Positions 3,607 through 31,180 of a DNA stretch of 33,591 bases are shown in pieces. This DNA is from a virus. A program made the position numbers and the translations under genes. The notes under the pieces were generated by a model that had not been told where the DNA came from, searched no databases, and saw only the letters and a program-made list of their open reading frames with translations. Position 1 is the first letter of the stretch; each line of letters opens with the position of its first letter. Location: positions 1 to 33,591 of the IMG/VR virus record IMGVR_UViG_3300037963_001322; one strand, written 5' to 3'.

Positions 3607-4308
3607 GTGGCTGATGTCAAAGTTGCCTTTGATGGATGGAATTCTTCCTCTCATGGATGGGGTGAAGGAACGTGGGGTAATGGCGAAGCGGTCCCTGACG
3701 CAACAGGCACACTCGGTACAGTTTCGGTTTCGGGTGATGCGAACGTCTCTGTCACGGGTGTGGCGGGAACAGGCACCCTTGGATCGGTATCTGTATCCGC
3801 TGATGCGGGTGTTAGTGTATCTGGCGTATCAGGCACTGGTACTCTTGGTTCGGTTACTGTCACGGGCACAGCAAACGTTAGCCCCACGGGTGTCGCAGGA
3901 ACCGGAACGCTTGGTTCAGTTTCAGTCTCGGCTGATGCAAGCACTTCGGTTACGGGTGTCGCAGGCACGGGAGCGTTGGGATCAGTTACGGTTACGGGCA
4001 CAGCAACCGTCAGTGTCACAGGAGTTGCCGGAACAACAGGTCTTGGAAGCGTCACCACAATCACAAGTAACACGATTGAAGTTTCCACACCAGAAATGGT
4101 TGGACAACTTGGCGCGGTTACGTTTGACGGTGACGCAAATGTGGTCCCAACAGGCGTGGAAGCCGCCTGTACAACGAGTGGCGTTAATGTTTGGGGATTG
4201 GTTGACGACAGCCAGACGCCGAATTGGTCAACTGTTGACGACAGCCAGACGCCGAATTGGTCAACTATTGACGATAGTCAAACACCAGATTGGAAAGAGG
4301 TAGCATAA
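3607..4308 (+). CDS. Repetitive beta-structural protein with TLGSV repeats
   Basis: 233 residues starting at GTG 3607. After a head with GWGEGTWGNG (residues 17-26), about seven imperfect repeats of 19-20 residues follow a TGTLGSVSVSADA.VSVTGV pattern, alternating VSADA and VTGTA types. A different tail has three 11-residue VDDSQTPNWST repeats. Regular strand-turn repeats suggest an elongated beta fibre, spike or decoration protein on the virion. The gene lies just before the main tail fibre and its stop abuts the fibre ATG. The same repeat appears at the end of the 10789-11118 product. A +1-frame ORF (3605-4303) of similar length is judged a shadow. Function is inferred only. Confidence 0.6.
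   Translation: MADVKVAFDGWNSSSHGWGEGTWGNGEAVPDATGTLGTVSVSGDANVSVTGVAGTGTLGSVSVSADAGVSVSGVSGTGTLGSVTVTGTANVSPTGVAGTGTLGSVSVSADASTSVTGVAGTGALGSVTVTGTATVSVTGVAGTTGLGSVTTITSNTIEVSTPEMVGQLGAVTFDGDANVVPTGVEAACTTSGVNVWGLVDDSQTPNWSTVDDSQTPNWSTIDDSQTPDWKEVA
4201..4299 (+). repeat. Three tandem 33-bp repeats
   Basis: Period 33 bp. Copies at 4201-4233 and 4234-4266 are identical; the third, 4267-4299, has diverged. Each encodes 11 residues of VDDSQTPNWST type at the C-terminus of the TLGSV-repeat protein. A coding, in-frame repeat. Confidence 0.9.
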
Positions 4309-13002: not shown

Positions 13003-14348
13003 TGACGGAAACTACAACCACTAGTCAGATAGTCCGCGAAGCTCCTGAAATAGAAGCGTATAAGACCGGGGTATACCAATCTGGTCTTGATTACGTTAAA
13101 AAACTACAAGAAGCCGGGATATTACCCCCTACCCGGGGCATTGCAGGGCTTTCTAGTGAAACAATGGCAGCTGGAGATATGCTTCGTGCTGGTATTGGAG
13201 GATATGAACCTTATTTGCAGGGTGCGCTAGGCTCTTTGCAAGCGGCTAAATCAGCCATAGGTAGTGGCGCGATGCCAGCCATGACCGAAGCACTAGCTCA
13301 ACAAGGCGCGTCTATTGCTGGTTTACAACGTGCAGGCGCATTAGCTGACAGAACCAGAGGGCTTCCTTATCAAACTCGTAGCGAAGCTTTACGCGGTTTA
13401 AACCGAGCAGCGGCTGGAATCCCCGGGATTATGGGAGCTACGCAACAGAATATTTACGGTGCCGCGCAAAGTTTGGGTGGAACCGGAGGTCAGTTTGACC
13501 CAAATACTATCCAAAACTTTATGAACCCCTACACCCAGCAGGTTATTGACGCCGAGCAAGCGGAACTAGCTCGTTTGGGAGAGCAACAAAAAATGGGTGC
13601 CCGGGCACAGGGGGTGCGTTCAGGAGCTTTCGGTGGGTCCAGAAGTGGCATACAAGAAGCTGAAATTGGTCGTAACGTATTGCAGCAGCAAGCACGGACC
13701 GGGGCACAACTAAGAACTCAAGGTTACCAACAAGCTGCACAACAAGCTCAGCAGGCTTTTGAACAAAGTCAACAAAGACAGCAACGAGGCGCACAACTAA
13801 GAGGTCAATTAGCTCAACTAGGTGGTCAGATGGGTCTTGCCGGTCAACAGTCTTTGGCTGACATGGCTATGCGAGGCGGTCAACTAGGTCTTCAGTACGG
13901 GCAGCTGGGGCAACGCGACGTGGATCAAATGGCTAGACTGGCACAAGCCAGAGGTCAGGCTGCACAAGGCATAGGCAGCTTAGCGTCCGCCACGGGTCAA
14001 TTAGGACTTGGGCTGGGACGACTGGGACAAGCCGAAGCAGGTCTTGGCGGCCAAGCACAGGCCATGAGAGCAGCAGATATTCAAGCCTTGTTAGGTTACG
14101 GAGGCATGACTCAACAGCAAGCTCAAAACGTACTTAACAATCAGTTTGCGGCAGAACAAGCGGCTTACCAGAATCCGTTCCAACAGATAGGGTTCTTGGC
14201 TGATTTAACCAAGGCGTTGCCTAGCTCTCAAGGCATGATGCAATCTTCGCAACAACCTAGTCCCGGTTTTGCTCAACAGGTTGCCGGACTAGGAATGGGA
14301 ATTATGGGCTTAGGCCGAGCAGGCATGTTTGGAGGATCGCCAGTATGA
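13002..14348 (+). CDS. Gln/Ala-rich internal virion protein, probable ejection component 2 (448 aa)
   Basis: The whole chain is helical and Gln/Ala/Gly rich. The middle (QNFMNPYTQQVIDAEQAELA then ARAQGVRSGAFGGSRSG) is a pattern I remember from internal virion proteins of many podo- and siphophages. From about 220 to 330 there are loose repeats of Q-L-G-x-x-G-x-x-x-x, and the end is Met/Gly rich. No catalytic residues. Long amphipathic helices are expected of proteins that form the transenvelope channel during ejection (P22 gp7/gp16/gp20 or T7 gp14-16 roles). ATGA coupling to the next gene. Confidence 0.55.
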   Translation: MTETTTTSQIVREAPEIEAYKTGVYQSGLDYVKKLQEAGILPPTRGIAGLSSETMAAGDMLRAGIGGYEPYLQGALGSLQAAKSAIGSGAMPAMTEALAQQGASIAGLQRAGALADRTRGLPYQTRSEALRGLNRAAAGIPGIMGATQQNIYGAAQSLGGTGGQFDPNTIQNFMNPYTQQVIDAEQAELARLGEQQKMGARAQGVRSGAFGGSRSGIQEAEIGRNVLQQQARTGAQLRTQGYQQAAQQAQQAFEQSQQRQQRGAQLRGQLAQLGGQMGLAGQQSLADMAMRGGQLGLQYGQLGQRDVDQMARLAQARGQAAQGIGSLASATGQLGLGLGRLGQAEAGLGGQAQAMRAADIQALLGYGGMTQQQAQNVLNNQFAAEQAAYQNPFQQIGFLADLTKALPSSQGMMQSSQQPSPGFAQQVAGLGMGIMGLGRAGMFGGSPV

Positions 14349-17182
14349 CGGTATTGAATAGATCTATGTTTGCTGCTGGAGGAAACGTAAGTAAGTTTCC
14401 TGATTTAAGTGGTGACGGTCAGGTCACACAAAAAGACATTTTGATGGGCCGTGGAGTAATTGAAAGACAAGCCGGAGGCCCAGTTCCTGAAATGGCTCCA
14501 ACACCAGCCCCGATTCCCCCTGAAATGGAAGGCCAAATAAATGCGGTGGAAGAACAAGCTGCCATGGGCGGCGAACAAGCAGGCTTAGAATACTTAGCAG
14601 GGACCATGGAAGGCATAGATGCCGCGCAAAGTTTTGAGGAAGTTATTAATGCTATGAGGGGCAATCAAGCTCCTATGCAGGAAAGACGCATGGAACTGGC
14701 TGGTTTTGTGGGCGATGAAGACGCTTTCCGTACCCCAGATTCTGTGGTTGCCATGGTACAACCAACTATTATGTTAACCGAAGAAGGAGCCATGGATAGT
14801 GGCATAGGCCAACTAATGCAGGCTCTTTCTGATGACGTTGCCATGATGGGTCCTGAAGGCCAACCTACGCCTGTAGGTCAGGGCGTGGGCGAGTTATTAA
14901 TGCAAGGTCAGCCTGAACCAATGCCTCCAATGCCACAGGAAATGATGGCAGCGGGAGGCCCCGTTATAAAAAAGTTCGCAGCCGGCGGAGCAGTCCAGAA
15001 ATTCGCAAACGGTATGGGCGTTAACAAAATGGCTGGAACAGGGCTGGAACGTTTGTATGAAATGAGTCCCGGGATGTTTAAAGCAATAGAGGGTGAGTTA
15101 GATCCTCAAACCTTAGACGCTTTGTACCCAGAACGTTTAGCTTTGTATAAAGAAATTTACGGCGATGATGACGATGAAAGACAAAGAGGTTTTGATTTGG
15201 CGCAAGCCGGTTTTGCCTTGGCTTCTGGAATTGACCCATCCACTGGACAAAATATTGCAGGACGTCCTTTTTTGTCTCAAGTGGGTTCTGCATTAACTCC
15301 TCTTGCTCAACGACAATCGGAACGTCTTTCTGACCAAAGAAAAGGTGAACGTGCGCTTAGGTTAGCTGCCATGCAATCAGCAGAAGCAGAAGAACGACGG
15401 CAAAAAGAAGAGTTATCCCAAGAAAGACAAGCTATTTTTGGAGCTGTGACGCAGTCAGGTGCCCAAGAACGCGATATTGACGCGGCTTTGGAAAGAATGA
15501 AAAGAACTCAATTGTTTGTTACTTCTGAACGAGAAGGTTCTCAAGCGTTTAATTTAGCTATGCAAGATGATCGTCAAGCGTTTGAAAGCGAGGCGATGGA
15601 CAAACGAAATCAATATACCCGAGACCTTGCTCGACTCAATGCAGATTTACAAAGTGCTTTATCTACCCAAGATTTTAATGAAGCCAAAAAAATTAATGAC
15701 CAATTAAACTTTATTCGACGTGGTCAAATGAATTTAGCGCATGATATTCGTCTTGCTGAGATAGGCCAGCTTCACGACAACGCCATGACAATGCAGGCGG
15801 ATCAATTTGGTAGGCGAGGCGGCTTGATTGAGTTGCAAGGTCGAGTGAACTTAGGTCTTCAAGAAAACGCACAAGACTTTAAAAAGCTTATGCAAGACGA
15901 TCAACAAAGATTTTTATCTTTAGAAAAAGGGTTAGATCGAGAGTTAAGCGCAGATCAATTTGACGCTTCTTTAGAACTTAAAGAAGACTATCTAGATTTA
16001 GCTGCAGAAGAGTTTGCGTACAAGCAAGCGTTAGGACCAGAAACTTTGACTAGTGATAGCTGGTGGGCCAGCTTCTTCCGTCCAGCGGGCGTCCCGGAAG
16101 ATCAAGCTCAAGTTTTACAAAACCTCAATCAACGTAGAAGAGAACTTGAGAACCAAATGCTTAATATGAACATTAATCTTGAACCCTTTAAAGTACGGGC
16201 AGCTACGCACCTGCAACAACAAGAAATGATGTTGCGTTCTGAGATGGCTAAGAGCAAGCAATTTATGGATATGATGGGCTTGTATCAAAGCATGGGTGAC
16301 CGTCCAATAGAAAGCTCTGGCGATCTGTTAAGTATTCTTGTTGACCCACGTAACATACAAGCTTACGGGGAAGGAAAATATGTTAAAGGGATGGACATGG
16401 CTATAGGTCAGTTTTTAAATCCTCGAACAGATCCCGTTACTAAAGAGTCCGTACTTCCGTTAATTCCTTCAGACTTAGCTGCAGCGGTTCGTCAACGACA
16501 AGAGGCTGGGGTAGCCGTTCCATTAGGGTTTATGGAATTATTAGACCGTCAATTTCAGGTTGGTGGTGAAGTAGAAGCCCCAGAGTATTTAGAACCTCTT
16601 TCAGGGACCATGCTTCCGGGACCAACCAAACGTGTTCCCTTGGAAGAATACTTCCAATACGATCCTATAATTACGGGGGACACTTCGGACATCACCCAAG
16701 CAACCGGTACGCGGTCTGGTGTTTTAAGACGAGTAGCTAAGCTAGGTGAAGGTATTCAAAACCTTGTAACGGGTTCCGATTTTGAATACACGCCTCAAGT
16801 TAACCAAGCCGTTTCCCAAGTAAATGCTTTAGCCACACTAGCTACAGTTGCTATGTTAGGGTCCATACCCGGAAAAGATAACGTGCAATTACAGACCATG
16901 GTTAAAGAGTTGCAGGTTCCCGGCGGAGAATTGTTCTTAGAAGATCGTCCTGCTTTAGAGTATTTTAAAACAGCCCGACGAGTTGTTGACTTTGGCATAC
17001 GGCAACAAGAGTTAAGCATTAAAACAGCTAACCTTAGCCGTAAAGAAGAAACCAAAGCTAATATAGACCTAGCTCATATGAAGGGTATTCGGTCAGAGTA
17101 TGACAACATTATTCGAGCGTATGAAAACAAGCTGGCTCCGAGCCAAGAATTTAAAGAAGATTTGGATCAATTTTTTAACTAA
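14345..17182 (+). CDS. Large internal virion protein with EF-hand/dockerin-like loop (945 aa)
   Basis: Near the start, residues 20-31 read DLSGDGQVTQKD: Asp20, Ser22, Asp24, Gln26, Thr28 and Asp31 occupy positions 1, 3, 5, 7, 9 and 12 of a calcium-binding loop of dockerin type, followed by ILMGRGVIE. Then comes a Met/Pro-rich acidic stretch (to ~200), Gly/Ala motifs (AAGGPVIKKFAAGG), and long charged helices likely to be coiled coil (~320-560). The C-terminal half is mixed helical. No enzymatic motif seen. By size, composition and order it is an ejection or inner-core protein. ATGA overlap upstream, TAATG overlap downstream. Confidence 0.5.
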   Translation: MTVLNRSMFAAGGNVSKFPDLSGDGQVTQKDILMGRGVIERQAGGPVPEMAPTPAPIPPEMEGQINAVEEQAAMGGEQAGLEYLAGTMEGIDAAQSFEEVINAMRGNQAPMQERRMELAGFVGDEDAFRTPDSVVAMVQPTIMLTEEGAMDSGIGQLMQALSDDVAMMGPEGQPTPVGQGVGELLMQGQPEPMPPMPQEMMAAGGPVIKKFAAGGAVQKFANGMGVNKMAGTGLERLYEMSPGMFKAIEGELDPQTLDALYPERLALYKEIYGDDDDERQRGFDLAQAGFALASGIDPSTGQNIAGRPFLSQVGSALTPLAQRQSERLSDQRKGERALRLAAMQSAEAEERRQKEELSQERQAIFGAVTQSGAQERDIDAALERMKRTQLFVTSEREGSQAFNLAMQDDRQAFESEAMDKRNQYTRDLARLNADLQSALSTQDFNEAKKINDQLNFIRRGQMNLAHDIRLAEIGQLHDNAMTMQADQFGRRGGLIELQGRVNLGLQENAQDFKKLMQDDQQRFLSLEKGLDRELSADQFDASLELKEDYLDLAAEEFAYKQALGPETLTSDSWWASFFRPAGVPEDQAQVLQNLNQRRRELENQMLNMNINLEPFKVRAATHLQQQEMMLRSEMAKSKQFMDMMGLYQSMGDRPIESSGDLLSILVDPRNIQAYGEGKYVKGMDMAIGQFLNPRTDPVTKESVLPLIPSDLAAAVRQRQEAGVAVPLGFMELLDRQFQVGGEVEAPEYLEPLSGTMLPGPTKRVPLEEYFQYDPIITGDTSDITQATGTRSGVLRRVAKLGEGIQNLVTGSDFEYTPQVNQAVSQVNALATLATVAMLGSIPGKDNVQLQTMVKELQVPGGELFLEDRPALEYFKTARRVVDFGIRQQELSIKTANLSRKEETKANIDLAHMKGIRSEYDNIIRAYENKLAPSQEFKEDLDQFFN

Positions 17183-20100
17183 TGCCTATTGGATTTCCAT
17201 TTAGTAAAGCTTCGCAAATAGCTTCTTTAACAGAAGAAGAGCGACAAGAGCTAGAACGCGCCCGGGGAGCAGCCAAAGACCCTATTGATTTTAATTTAGG
17301 GGAAGCTTACGAATATTTGCGAGACAAAGGTTTAGAAGAACCGCAAGCTCTTAAAAGTATTGCAGAAAAACTTTCTGAAAAAGCAGACTTTAATTACGAA
17401 GGCGCACGTAAAGCTCAGTTCACAGATGAAATGATCATAGCTCGATTAATAGGTCGTGAAACAGACGATTTACGGCCTGATTTGTTGCAAAGTTTTGGCG
17501 AAGGTTTTGGTCGAGCGGTGGCCCGAGAAGCTCCGGGAGCTGCAGCTTTTGCGGGAGCGGCTACCGTAACTCCCGGTGGTCCCATGGCTAAACTAGCCGC
17601 AGGAACCGCCGCAGGAACAGCAGTTGGTTTATTTGGCGACGGAGATTTGGTTGAAGACTTTTTGTTTTCGGAGCGTCAGTTACTGCCCTCTGAACGATCT
17701 GCAGCCCGAGTAGGCGACACTTTGGGATCGGCTTTGGCTTGGATATTGCCGGGAAAACAAATAGTAAAAAGTATTCCAGATGAAGTGAATCTTGGCTCAC
17801 GGCGCATGTTACAAGCGCATCAGGAACGCCGAAATAAAATCTTGAACAAAGAAAGAGGCTTTGAAGGTCTTTCTCGAAAAGAAAGAAAAACGTTAGAAAA
17901 AGAACCTTTTAAGTTAAAAGCAGCACGAACTTCAGAAAAATTGCTGGAAGGTTTAGGTCGCGGAGCGCGGGAAACAGGCATTGGTACTTATGCAACAGCA
18001 GATCTTCTAGCCACTGTTATTCCGGCTATGACAGAGGGTGTTTTAGAGTACATGTACCCCGGGAGGGAAGAGATTATTATTTCTGGAGGCGTAGCTTCCT
18101 CTCTTATTCCCACTCCAACAAAAATAGTAGCCGGAGGCGTTAGCACGGCTACCGGAGCTGGTAAAGCTGCGCTTGAGTCTGTAAGAGAAGAAGGCGGTTT
18201 TTTTAAAGCTGCTACAGAAGGCTTTGGTTTAAGACAAGCTATTCAAACCAGAAGACAAGAAAAAGCTGCTGCTTACTTAGCGCAAGCTTTTGAAGATGCC
18301 GGAGGAGACCCCAGAAAGTTTGCTGAAGAGTTAGAGGCGGCTATACAAGCAGACCCGGAAGGGGCTGAAATGTTAACAGCAGGTCAGTTAAGCAACAATC
18401 CAATTGTGTTGTTAGCTGAAAGAACGTTGGCAGAGCAAAATAAATACCTAGATTCCGCACAACAACAAGCTGCTTTACAAGGAGCGCAACGACTTACTAG
18501 GCTAATTTTAACTTTAGAACAAACAGGAAACCCGGAGTTGTTGCAGTACGCTGGACAACTTAAAGAAAACGCTTTGGATGCTCAATTTACTGCTTTGATT
18601 GAAGGTAAACTGGCTCAAGCTGTTGGTGCAGCCGACAAACTTCCTAATGTTAGAACAGGTAAACCCAGCACGGAAATAGCAATGGATCAATCCGCTTTAG
18701 TTAAAGATGCTATTACAGAAGCGCATGACGCGGCTAAGGCAATTTCTAGGCAAAAGTACGATGCGGTAAATAAACTAACCATGGTAGACGCAAAGCCTTT
18801 ACTTAATGCTTATTTACTAGCTAAAGAAAAATACTTATTAAAAGGAGAAAAACTTCCCGCTGTTTTAATGGCTGCTTTAGAAGACATGGGACTTAGTGAC
18901 ATTAAACAACTGGATCGAATTGATTCCGAAATACGGCGTCTAGAACAAGATCCGAGCATACGACTCGGTCAAATAAGCGGGTTGAATAATGTTCTTGACG
19001 GTTTGCGGGACCAAAAAGCGAAGCTAATAGAAGAAGGGTTAGGTCAAATCGAATTAGGGGAAGTAATTAAATTTAAAAATAGAGCGGGAGCTTTTTACCG
19101 ACAAGCGAAAGCTGGAGTAGAACCTTTTGATCCCGCCTTATTTAGTGAAATGACGAGGGGTGCAGACATTGTTCTTCTTAATCGAATAGTAGGGGAAATT
19201 CCCGAAGAAGTAGCTTTGCAACGATATGTCGATGAGTACGGTGATATTGACATTGACATTGAGGAACTGATTGCAGGACTGGAATTAACGCCCGATCAAA
19301 AGATATTGAAAGACGCTTATCAATATACACGCGCCATGAACAAAGCGTTTAGGCAAACCATTGCGGGTGATATGACTCGCATGGATCGAGATTTAGCTCA
19401 AGTAATTCCTTTTGAGGAAGCTTTAGATAGAGTTTTTACAGGAAATTCAAGCAAGGTAGCTAGGCAAGCCCGGGAGTTGCAAGAAGCTATGCGTTTTGTA
19501 TACGGAGATATGGATAACCGGGTTCATTCTCTTAATGGCCACATGGATGCGTTTTTACGAAATAAAATGCTTGAGTTTACTACCATGGAAACTCGGGTTT
19601 TGGCTGACGGAACAACAGCTGAAGTTCCTGTTATTTCAGACAGTGGTTTAAAATCTTTTAAAAGAAAATATGACGGGGTGTTAAAACTTCCCGGAATGGA
19701 ATCTTTAAAGAACGACTTAAACGAATTAGATACTGCTAACGTTGCGTTACAAACTGCTTTAGCTGAAGGCACGGAACATTACAAAAATAGTATGGCGCAA
19801 GTTGGTTTAGCTAACTTTTTACACAGACGACGTGGTTTACCTAAAGATGGTGAACGGCCTAGGTTAGAAAATGCCAGCGTGGTTATAGGCGATATTCTTA
19901 GTCAAGAAGATCCCGTGGCAGCTTTAACTAGATTAGCTAACGAAATTAAAGAATATGCGCCCGCAGAGCTTCTTCCTGAAATACAAAGAGGTCTGTTTGC
20001 TTCTGTGGTGGAGTACGCAGAACAACGTTCACGAAACAAAATCGGCATTGATTTTAATAAGATGTATGACGTTTTGTTTGAGACCGGCTCCGTTTCTTCT

Positions 20101-20853
20101 ATGACAAAGTTTGGTAGAAGATCCCCTTCAATTATGAGCGTTTTAGAAAAGCAAGGTGCTTTACCAAAAGAACAAATAGAAGAACTACAAGATTTTCTTC
20201 AACGCGGTAAAAATTTACAAATTTCTCTTGACGCAGGAATAGATGATTTCATCAACCTGAAAGAAACCAGTGCCATGAAAGATTTCTTTGTTCGGTATGC
20301 TGGAGCAAGGGGCATGTCTCAACTTAGCGCGGCTTCTGGAGTCGTTCCTTCCATACAAGAAACAGGGGCCGCAGCGCAGTTAAGTAGAAATGTTTTTGTT
20401 AACTTTCCACAAGCAGCTCTTCAAGATATTTTAGTGGACGTGTCTTCTCCCGGCAGAGCCTCTGCTTTAGCTGAATATTTAAGACGTGGAGCAGATCGAG
20501 CAACAACACGCCAAGGACTTGAGCGAGTTTATGACTATGTAGCCAATACCTTACTAGGCGCAAAAGGTTTGTTGTTTGCCGCACCCAGCCGACTAGCTGA
20601 CGATAATTTGGGGGCGCAAACAGATCGACGCTTTGAAGAACAACGACGAGTGGCTCCTCCTATACCCGTACCCGAGGCTCCTGCACCAATGGCTGAGTTA
20701 AGTATCCCACAAGGAATGCAAGCTACACCTCCGCCCCCGCCTCCCGGACCTCAAATGGCTAGTCAACGGCAGCAGTATGCTCAAATGTTTCCGTTTGATA
20801 CGGCTTCTGATGTTATTCGACAACAGGGCGGTATTGGGAGCTTGATGCCTTAA
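17182..20853 (+). CDS. Very large internal virion protein, probable ejection component (1223 aa)
   Basis: Starts at ATG 17182 overlapping the preceding stop. Residues ~115-155 are Ala/Gly-rich and hydrophobic (AAAFAGAATVTPGGPMAKLA; AGTAAGTAVGLFG), as is ~260-325; these may be membrane-inserting. Most of the rest is charged helix. The C-terminus is Pro-rich, with a PPPPPP run, and ends DVIRQQGGIGSLMP. Single proteins over 1000 residues at the end of a tail module are typical of channel-forming ejection proteins (T7 gp16 size class), but I see no lytic transglycosylase signature. The TAA overlaps the stop of the opposing helicase gene by three bases. Confidence 0.5.
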   Translation: MPIGFPFSKASQIASLTEEERQELERARGAAKDPIDFNLGEAYEYLRDKGLEEPQALKSIAEKLSEKADFNYEGARKAQFTDEMIIARLIGRETDDLRPDLLQSFGEGFGRAVAREAPGAAAFAGAATVTPGGPMAKLAAGTAAGTAVGLFGDGDLVEDFLFSERQLLPSERSAARVGDTLGSALAWILPGKQIVKSIPDEVNLGSRRMLQAHQERRNKILNKERGFEGLSRKERKTLEKEPFKLKAARTSEKLLEGLGRGARETGIGTYATADLLATVIPAMTEGVLEYMYPGREEIIISGGVASSLIPTPTKIVAGGVSTATGAGKAALESVREEGGFFKAATEGFGLRQAIQTRRQEKAAAYLAQAFEDAGGDPRKFAEELEAAIQADPEGAEMLTAGQLSNNPIVLLAERTLAEQNKYLDSAQQQAALQGAQRLTRLILTLEQTGNPELLQYAGQLKENALDAQFTALIEGKLAQAVGAADKLPNVRTGKPSTEIAMDQSALVKDAITEAHDAAKAISRQKYDAVNKLTMVDAKPLLNAYLLAKEKYLLKGEKLPAVLMAALEDMGLSDIKQLDRIDSEIRRLEQDPSIRLGQISGLNNVLDGLRDQKAKLIEEGLGQIELGEVIKFKNRAGAFYRQAKAGVEPFDPALFSEMTRGADIVLLNRIVGEIPEEVALQRYVDEYGDIDIDIEELIAGLELTPDQKILKDAYQYTRAMNKAFRQTIAGDMTRMDRDLAQVIPFEEALDRVFTGNSSKVARQARELQEAMRFVYGDMDNRVHSLNGHMDAFLRNKMLEFTTMETRVLADGTTAEVPVISDSGLKSFKRKYDGVLKLPGMESLKNDLNELDTANVALQTALAEGTEHYKNSMAQVGLANFLHRRRGLPKDGERPRLENASVVIGDILSQEDPVAALTRLANEIKEYAPAELLPEIQRGLFASVVEYAEQRSRNKIGIDFNKMYDVLFETGSVSSMTKFGRRSPSIMSVLEKQGALPKEQIEELQDFLQRGKNLQISLDAGIDDFINLKETSAMKDFFVRYAGARGMSQLSAASGVVPSIQETGAAAQLSRNVFVNFPQAALQDILVDVSSPGRASALAEYLRRGADRATTRQGLERVYDYVANTLLGAKGLLFAAPSRLADDNLGAQTDRRFEEQRRVAPPIPVPEAPAPMAELSIPQGMQATPPPPPPGPQMASQRQQYAQMFPFDTASDVIRQQGGIGSLMP

Positions 20854-29339: not shown

Positions 29340-29477
29340 AGGCCAAGGGGAGTAATAACCCCTTCATGCGTAGCTTAGCCCTCTGCGGGTCGAAAACGGG
29401 CTTTACCTCTTTAGACCAAAGGATAGCTCATCCTTCGGAGCAAGACCGGTCCACTTGTGGTCGAAAACGGACCTTTA
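29337..29477 (+). promoter_or_regulatory. Two tandem structured RNA modules in a leader, riboswitch-like
   Basis: Module 1 is 29337-29405, module 2 is 29410-29477. Each has TTTAG(G/A)CC, a 5-6 bp hairpin (29345-29350 with 29359-29364; 29419-29424 with 29430-29435), a 12-base spacer, then a 5-bp stem with a 16-base loop ending GGTCGAAAAC (29377-29381 with 29398-29402; 29448-29452 with 29469-29473). Stem bases differ between copies in compensating pairs while the loop is conserved. Loop GGTC can also pair with the upstream G(G/A)CC, giving a pseudoknot in each. The linker ACCTC (29405-29409) is complementary to GAGGT (29481-29485) at the ribosome binding site of the next gene. Ligand unknown; no known class recognised. 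Confidence 0.65.
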
Positions 29478-29489
29478 ATTGAGGTAACC

Positions 29490-29678
29490 ATGAAAAAAAC
29501 GAAACAAGAAGAAAGCAAAGAGCTAGAAGATCAAGTCGCTGAGTTTTTAAAAAAAGGCGGGAAGATCGAAGAAGTAGACATAACCGTCTCTAATTCTAAA
29601 AAACTGGAATTATCTAAACGTTTCTTTGCTAAAACCAATCACTTTGTTTATCGACAGGGCAAGAAAAAGGGACCGTAG
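29490..29678 (+). CDS. Small Lys-rich protein with SutA-like motif (62 aa)
   Basis: ATG 29490 is preferred: GAGG at 29481-29484 is 5 bases upstream. An upstream in-frame GTG at 29457 falls inside the RNA hairpin loop and is rejected. The product reads DQVAEFLKKGGKIEEVDITV, then a basic Arg/Lys end (FVYRQGKKKGP). The 'x-FLxxGGKIxEVxxxV' segment resembles the RNA polymerase-binding part of Pseudomonas SutA and its relatives, from memory. If right, it would be a phage protein touching host RNA polymerase; otherwise an unknown small basic protein. Its stop codon sits in the terminator hairpin. Confidence 0.6.
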   Translation: MKKTKQEESKELEDQVAEFLKKGGKIEEVDITVSNSKKLELSKRFFAKTNHFVYRQGKKKGP

Positions 29679-29688
29679 TCCCTTTCTT
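29666..29688 (+). terminator. Intrinsic terminator containing the stop codon of the 62-aa gene
   Basis: AAAGGGAC at 29666-29673 pairs with GTCCCTTT at 29678-29685 with a 4-base loop, followed by CTT. The TAG at 29676-29678 lies at the loop and the start of the 3' arm. The T-run is short, so termination may be partial. Confidence 0.6.
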
Positions 29689-29689
29689 A

Positions 29690-29890
29690 AAAAGTTGCTT
29701 ATATCACACTCCGCAGTGGCGACCTGCAGAGTGCCGATCCCTCGTGATATTATGTCCCCTTCTGCTCCACTGACTAAAGGATCGGATGGAGGGTTTTCTT
29801 GGGACTAACTCTAGCCCATGGCACTATCTCCCGTCTGGTTGATGCTGCGATATAGCCACTCGCGACGTGGCCTCACCCGCAGCCTTTTTA
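29690..29890 (+). ncRNA. Candidate structured small RNA with pseudoknot
   Basis: Stem P1: ATATCAC at 29701-29707 with GTGATAT at 29744-29750, enclosing a 9-bp hairpin with one mismatch (29708-29716 with 29724-29732). CCGATCC at 29734-29740 is complementary to GGATCGG at 29779-29785; because it starts within P1 and ends outside it, the two stems interleave as a pseudoknot. GTCCC 29754-29758 can pair with GGGAC 29801-29805. The region ends in a terminator at 29844-29889. No convincing ORF is present; an 18-codon ATG frame at 29752 lacks a ribosome binding site. No promoter was found inside, so it may come from readthrough. Class not recognised. Confidence 0.45.
29844..29889 (+). terminator. Intrinsic terminator, nested stem
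   Basis: GCTGCG at 29844-29849 pairs with CGCAGC at 29878-29883, enclosing GCCAC 29855-29859 with GTGGC 29867-29871. TTTTT follows at 29885-29889. Faces the minus-strand operon end and limits transcription into it. Confidence 0.7.
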
Positions 29891-30022
29891 TTCTTCTTCC
29901 ATTAATTTAACGTAAACCCCGGTCCAGTACGTTCTGGCCCACGCATTTAAATTAGGTTTTTCTAAAATATTCCTTACCGCCAATAGCTGAGAAATCATTC
30001 TCCATTCTGTTTGATTAAACAT
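29888..30022 (-). CDS. Small protein, last gene of the minus cluster (44 aa)
   Basis: ATG at 30022-30020 overlaps the stop of the 374-residue gene (TAATG), with TAA at 29890-29888. The product, starting MFNQTEWRMISQLLAVRNIL and ending KLMEEE, is helical with several Trp. Unknown family. The exact stop-start overlap makes it likely to be translated. Its stop touches the terminator T-run of the opposing unit. Confidence 0.6.
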   Translation of the reverse strand: MFNQTEWRMISQLLAVRNILEKPNLNAWARTYWTGVYVKLMEEE

Positions 30023-31146
30023 TACGTCTCATCCTTTTCAACAACATAATCTTTAGTAATCACTCCCAAGCTGGGATCGCCGCGTTTATGCTCTTTAATA
30101 TACACGCTTTTAAGAATGTATCCGTGTTCATCCTTATAATGACGCCAGTGTCCTGCTACGTCGTGTTGTCGTACTCCAGCAAACTCCGTGCGCTTTGGCT
30201 CTTTTGGCATTATTACACGGCCCTTGGTTTTGGGCAGCGTTAGCTTTACGCGCACGTGCGAGTCGTGAGGGGTTATTTCTTTCTTTAACCGTTTGCCTTG
30301 TACTCCAAGAACCTTCGGCTCCTCCACGAACCAGTCGTAATTCATCAAGGACATCATGGCTATCAACCTCGCATATTTGTTTTGATTGATCCGGCCCGTA
30401 ACTATTTCGTACCCCCCGTTTACATTTTCTGGAATGTCACAAACGTAGTCATTAAAACCCCCGGACCATCTTTCGAGAAGACCTGATATGTCGTTGCTGG
30501 TCGTGGCTTCATGGTCTCCCAAAAACATTAACGGGAAAAACCGTGACTTAAAGGTTTGGACTTGCCCTCTTGCGTTATCCTCAATATATTGCCCGCTCAA
30601 ACTCCAAAGGCAGGTTTTAACATTTATTGGATACAAGGCTACTGCGGTTTTTGCAGGGAAAAGCGTGGTTGTTTCGTCACGGGTTCCGTACACCTCTTCG
30701 TGATAATGTTCTATGACATACACATCTCCACGCTCACACCGTTTTTTTCCGATTAGTTCATTCTGTTCGTTTATGATTGCAATTTCGGGGGATTCTCGAA
30801 CATGAAAACCAGTTAACCCGAACCCCGGGTACAAATGCCCCAAATCAAATTCAATCCACTGATTGAAGTGGCGAGGGCGGGCATTCAGCATAGCTTTATA
30901 AAGCTGATGCTGATTACCTTTTTCAACTTGTGGCTCCAAATACTCCAAGATTTCATTGCTGATTTCGTAGGTCACACTGCTTTGAATCCGGTTAGTTCTT
31001 TCGCGCACCATCTTCTTTACGTGCGCTTTCCACGCTTTAGGGTGGTGAAACTCTTCTAAGCCGCCCAAACGGATGTACGGCTTTTGAATTGCGTGAATAA
31101 CTTCTTGTTTAAGCTGACCCAGTTCCAGTTTTTCTCCTTCGTGCAT
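30022..31146 (-). CDS. Conserved phage protein of unknown function (374 aa)
   Basis: AGGAGA ends 8 bases before ATG 31146. Soluble, helical start (ELGQLKQEVIHAIQKPYIRL), a middle alpha/beta part (RPRHFNQWIEFDLGHLYP; FLGDHEATTSND), and a basic, well-patterned C-terminus: RQHDVAGHWRHYKDEHGY then KEHKRGDPSLGVITKDYVVE. I remember this C-terminal pattern (H-x-V-x-GHWR...K-x-H-x-RGD-SLG) in many phage proteins with no known function. The conserved His, Arg and Asp could be a nucleic-acid or catalytic site, but that is speculation. It lies downstream of the terminator at 31181, so it may have its own promoter. Confidence 0.6.
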   Translation of the reverse strand: MHEGEKLELGQLKQEVIHAIQKPYIRLGGLEEFHHPKAWKAHVKKMVRERTNRIQSSVTYEISNEILEYLEPQVEKGNQHQLYKAMLNARPRHFNQWIEFDLGHLYPGFGLTGFHVRESPEIAIINEQNELIGKKRCERGDVYVIEHYHEEVYGTRDETTTLFPAKTAVALYPINVKTCLWSLSGQYIEDNARGQVQTFKSRFFPLMFLGDHEATTSNDISGLLERWSGGFNDYVCDIPENVNGGYEIVTGRINQNKYARLIAMMSLMNYDWFVEEPKVLGVQGKRLKKEITPHDSHVRVKLTLPKTKGRVIMPKEPKRTEFAGVRQHDVAGHWRHYKDEHGYILKSVYIKEHKRGDPSLGVITKDYVVEKDET

Positions 31147-31180
31147 AAGATTAGTCTCCTATATTCGCATACATGTGCTG

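Follow-up and report, generated by a model that had tools for sequence, protein, structure and literature searches.

A non-coding interval between convergent genes

The window, the whole 33,591-nt stretch analysed here (IMG/VR record IMGVR_UViG_3300037963_001322), derives from a marine podovirus-like phage. Its DNA polymerase shares 55% identity with the enzyme of phage DSL-LC04 and 52% with the one from Pelagibacter phage HTVC023P. Between a block of plus-strand genes ending in a SutA-like ORF and a block of minus-strand genes ending in a 44-aa ORF lie about 200 bases for which a preliminary description proposed selection for an RNA, namely a plus-strand small RNA with a long-range pseudoknot and its own terminator. 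Is an RNA made from this interval, from which strand, and what might it do? The statement that no protein is encoded was borne out, as the longest stop-free stretch in any frame is 40 codons. No open frame on either strand is conserved across the element in the copies translated, and a hidden protein was rejected for this reason.

An IMG/VR pattern scan found the element in six contigs belonging to two lineages of uncultured marine phages. G001 (= L081) and G006 (= L086) are of the same kind as the window. In the other four, G002–G005 (= L082, L083, L084 and L085), the block corresponding to 29702-29891 is 92% identical and the flanks around the element are unrelated. The window and G002 have tail genes in common (~80% identity), whereas the surroundings of the element differ. 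Within the second lineage (G002, G004 and G005), the RNA core differs by 2.2–3.9%, compared with a dS of 0.13–0.28 for a terS-like gene. The element is under constraint and does not code for protein.

The phage-borne SutA-like ORF, which is convergent with the structured RNA, also occurs in G001 and G006 and, at other genome positions, in G002 and G005. Its leader (29345-29480, plus strand) carries two small H-type pseudoknot motifs in tandem, GUAG-CUU-AGCCC-U-CUGC-GGGUCGAAAAC-GGGCU and CAAG-ACC-GGUCC-A-CUUG-UGGUCGAAAAC-GGACC, and a third copy lies upstream of a helicase-like gene (G002:37027-37082; L095:17027-17082). Both helices vary in step between copies. The motifs match no Rfam family; a riboswitch or other leader RNA is possible. 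The 44-aa ORF has a 38% identical homologue in L011. A gene-swap site adjoins the RNA at 30038-31151, where the window has a 374-aa minus-strand gene and G001, G006 and L002 have a different, longer one between flanks that are still 94–98% identical. Elsewhere on the plus strand, 14345-20853 encodes two proteins of very large size, 945 aa and 1223 aa, with no match in PHROGs or Pfam, and the structural genes contain internal direct repeats at 1275-1409 and 3753-4034 (a 30-bp exact repeat and a repeat of ~150 bp with 71% identity).

The RNA lies on the minus strand

The plus-strand helices described earlier can all be found in the window: ATATCAC (29701-29707) with GTGATAT (29744-29750), a hairpin at 29707-29715/29725-29733, and CCGATCC (29734-29740) with GGATCGG (29779-29785), which interleaves with the first stem. 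Dinucleotide shuffles of 29690-29890 contained a mean of 0.75 perfect helices of at least 7 bp, with two or more such helices in 17% of shuffles and an interleaved pair in 4%. Because shuffling yields similar helices, those listed are singly near chance and weak evidence when taken alone.

Comparison of the strands is more informative. The fold z-score is −2.8 for the minus strand and an unremarkable −1.6 for the plus strand, the consensus folding energies are −65.9 and −49.1, respectively, and 96.7% of structure cells pair on the minus strand. Two pairs in the upper 5′ stem are compensated on this strand (A-U/G-C and C-G/A-U). Five more variable pairs are kept there by G-U pairing and broken on the plus strand, whereas one variable pair behaves in the opposite way. 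Two fixed pairs are G-U on the minus strand and mismatched on the plus strand, and in every context the RNA is co-directional with the upstream ORF. The asymmetry of pairing, the consensus energies and this co-direction place the RNA on the minus strand. Compensating changes confined to one strand, together with the lack of coding, identify a structured non-coding RNA, with support that is moderate because the sequences are few.

These observations make it very improbable that the interval encodes a self-terminating small RNA on the plus strand. Its appeal is that the plus strand of the window ends in a G+C-rich hairpin (GCTGCG..CGCAGC) followed by T5 ending at 29889. The hairpin is there, but the T-run is not conserved in relatives, and the supposed terminator is simply what the minus-strand RNA's 5′ hairpin looks like when read in reverse. 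A plus-strand transcript would have a far weaker consensus fold, would lose five of the variable pairs in exchange for one, and in each of the four relatives would run antisense to the neighbouring genes. The 9-bp hairpin exists as described, with one C-A mismatch if read on the plus strand. Conservation of pairing in relatives, the check set beforehand, held for both terminal hairpins and failed for the outer 29701/29744 stem, in which two pairs are broken in all four distant copies (G002–G005). The preliminary description is thus partly supported. A phage structured RNA is present and selection for RNA stands, whereas the strand and the terminator were wrong and the outer stem is not conserved.

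Architecture of the element

The features of the minus-strand RNA and its surroundings are collected in Table 1. The 5′ end would lie near 29889, and the 3′ end either close to 29702 or at the terminator that comes next.

Table 1. Coordinates of the RNA, its predicted parts and adjoining features in the window
Feature	Position	Strand	Basis or remark
Conserved structured RNA, ~185 nt	29702..29889 (core 29705-29885; 5′ end near 29889)	-	92% identity to four contigs; minus structure kept
5′ hairpin	29844..29883	-	P1 29883-29877/29850-29844; upper stem P1a 29872-29867/29859-29854
Proposed helix GUCCC 29805-29801/GGGAC 29758-29754	29754..29805	-	encloses pseudoknot domain; minus consensus fold; invariant in all copies
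Proposed helix CUCCA 29791-29787/UGGAG 29769-29765	29765..29791	-	minus consensus fold; invariant
Proposed 7-bp pseudoknot helix CCGAUCC 29785-29779/GGAUCGG 29740-29734	29734..29785	-	in all copies, invariant
Probably single-stranded stretch ACAUAAUAUCACGAG	29741..29755	-	unchanged in six sequences
3′ hairpin CACUCUGCA/UGCGGAGUG, loop GGUCGCCAC	29707..29733	-	9 bp in all copies
Intrinsic terminator-like hairpin GGGACTACGGTCCC then T5	29664..29682 (hairpin 29682-29669, T5 29668-29664)	-	sequence; also in empty allele L002
44-aa ORF	29888..30022	-	stop codon abuts RNA 5′ end; ORF intact in L002, which is without the RNA
SutA-like 62-aa ORF	29490-29678	+	SutA RNA-polymerase-binding domain PF20661, E 1e-12
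Segment missing from L002	29683..29887	.	205 bp vs 1 bp, alignment of L002, window and L086

Both terminal hairpins exist on the minus strand. The 5′ hairpin, whose loop (GUCGCGA, 29866-29860) is invariant, is supported by two compensatory pairs and by four that G-U pairing preserves on that strand; one cell is unpaired in G002. In the 3′ hairpin, one pair alternates between A-U and G-U and one is a fixed U-G; both are broken on the plus strand. Its loop again contains GUCGC, as in the 5′ hairpin loop.

For the central domain between them we propose the two 5-bp helices and the pseudoknot helix, an arrangement consistent with every copy. The pseudoknot helix is the second pairing of the preliminary description, read on the opposite strand. 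Given that it is invariant, covariation neither supports nor refutes it, and a 7-bp pseudoknot in the minus-strand RNA is plausible. The hairpin at 29682-29669 with its T5 is a candidate for the 3′ end of the transcript; a consensus scan with its own thresholds did not find it.

Genomic contexts and distribution

The element always lies in sense orientation, a few bases past the point where the upstream gene stops. Its upstream neighbours in the second lineage are three unrelated genes, whose stop codons it follows, and it lies ~1 kb upstream of the terS-like gene, which encodes 177 aa and has a relative in HTVC027P annotated as terminase small subunit. As far as the element, G003 and G005 share 99.8% identity; there G005 has a 317-bp gene (L099:19459-19774), without counterpart in G003, inserted exactly between the stop codon of gene A and the RNA 5′ end. 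The presence of this gene in only one of the two indicates that the element is tied to no particular upstream gene. Since the 5′ flanks in four contexts are unrelated and share no candidate promoter, an upstream promoter of its own is unlikely and transcription by read-through is probable. Within the element, a single weak consensus promoter match was found, not above chance. A separate intergenic module of ~84 bp (L094:17125-17206 and L094:18485-18568) is repeated before several genes of G002–G005; it consists of a hairpin, CGAGTGGCC..GGCCACTC, followed by AAGAAACACTTAA and a ribosome-binding site.

The element is present in some phages and absent from close relatives. L002 is 97–98% identical to the window beside the site, which in L002 reads GGGACCGTAGTCCC-C-TTATTCTTC; the single C is replaced by 205 bases in the window. 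The RNA of the window thus lies past the stop codon of the 44-aa ORF and ahead of that ORF's terminator. Both alleles have the ORF intact, together with its stop and the terminator hairpin. The window-lineage contigs are roughly equidistant, so the difference at this site may reflect either gain or loss. The second-lineage loci L108/L192, L189 and L190 lack the RNA, and there the hairpin module comes straight after a stop codon. Among loci fetched by the terS-like gene, some of them too short to cover the site, the RNA occurs only in the four known contigs. With two lineages and six contigs, the independent events are few. Because it follows unrelated genes and close relatives lack it cleanly, the element behaves like an RNA-only gene gained or lost as a unit, and we infer horizontal transfer rather than repeated loss.

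Clean presence and absence, hairpins at either end and the lack of coding are also what one would see of a passive mobile element, that is, a small non-autonomous insertion, comparable to an IS200/IS605-type PATE or MITE, which would spread as DNA and have no RNA function. We consider this improbable. Such an element should occur in several copies or have a transposase-bearing relative, and should insert without regard to orientation, but each contig has a single copy, in one and the same orientation to the upstream gene, and no related transposase element came up in the general searches. In addition, the interior is strongly constrained, no target-site duplication was seen in the alignment of the L002/window junction, and the G-U substitutions preserve pairing in RNA but not in DNA.

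Database searches and comparison with known RNAs

Neither the window nor L082–L085 matched Rfam 15 at gathering thresholds, and a relaxed threshold gave chance-level matches only. The Rfam CRISPR repeat models did not match the element. A search for diverged homologues in ~190 loci with nhmmer --max and covariance model R1 found none beyond the known copies, and scanning IMG/VR with DNA patterns yielded no contigs besides the six. No real match emerged among INPHARED phages or PLSDB plasmids, and a loop-pattern DNA scan of bacterial genomes, which would miss diverged copies, gave three chance matches. An HDV-like ribozyme was set aside after comparing topologies by hand, as the P3 and P4 hairpins are lacking. 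By every search made, the element is a new RNA family, of an already known kind, the phage structured non-coding RNA.

Its layout would be that of bacterial small RNAs derived from 3′ UTRs, in which the RNA lies past a stop codon and ends at the terminator. Those RNAs usually share sequence with one host gene, whereas the element is exchanged between unrelated upstream genes. Some of the ornate RNAs of the GOLLD, ROOL and OLE type occur in phages. The element resembles these RNAs of unknown function in its elaborate fold, but they are several hundred nucleotides long and present in Rfam (PMC12286853), compared with ~185 nt and no Rfam match here. RNA-based anti-CRISPRs (Racrs) are likewise phage-encoded, RNA-only accessory genes, although they are short and mimic single CRISPR repeats (PMC10651486), in contrast to the longer, complex fold of the element.

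The put RNA of phage HK022 is a folded phage RNA that acts ahead of a terminator and needs no protein; it works in cis on RNA polymerase from early leaders (PMC9378689). The element is larger and follows stop codons, and no gene of the same direction lies downstream of it in the window. Its place ahead of a terminator would nevertheless be compatible with a put-type antiterminator. A role as 5′ leader or riboswitch for a gene downstream was excluded in the window because no co-directional gene precedes the terminator.

A cis-acting or trans-acting RNA

The main rival explanation is a cis-acting 3′-UTR element, in which a rigid pseudoknot would shield the upstream mRNA from 3′ exonucleases, in the manner of exonuclease-resistant RNA, or would control termination and read-through at the next hairpin, as the HK022 put RNA does. 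The position of the element directly past a stop codon, in sense and just ahead of a hairpin or terminator, is what this explanation expects. On the other hand, the upstream genes are unrelated and exchangeable, a mere barrier has no need of long invariant unpaired stretches, and in the window read-through would yield only RNA antisense to the convergent genes. We regard a cis-acting role as possible but rather doubtful; a passive mobile element is less likely again.

A trans-acting role is instead suggested by a compact fold, in which a proposed pseudoknot domain lies between the 5′ and 3′ hairpins, combined with the long invariant unpaired stretches. Our best explanation, to which we give about an even chance, is that the element represents a new phage RNA family encoded on the minus strand as an RNA-only accessory cassette, made by read-through and probably acting in trans. 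The cassette would be gained or lost whole, at a site bounded by a gene's stop codon and the downstream hairpin or terminator. Transcription would enter from the upstream gene, the pre-existing hairpin would set the 3′ end, and the RNA would probably be released from the 3′ end of the mRNA by processing. It might then bind a protein or an RNA of the host and serve, for instance, as a decoy or in anti-defence. More tentatively, the element may represent a new class of trans-acting pseudoknotted phage RNAs that block a host process or defence and move between marine phage lineages as protein-free cassettes, using promoters and terminators that belong to other genes.

Phage accessory genes are nearly always catalogued as proteins. 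The unusual part of the present finding is an RNA-only cassette that is under strong constraint and shared between lineages; gene callers would miss such elements. The patchy distribution of the RNA resembles that of anti-defence genes, and its effect can be tested because two near-identical phages differ in whether they carry it.
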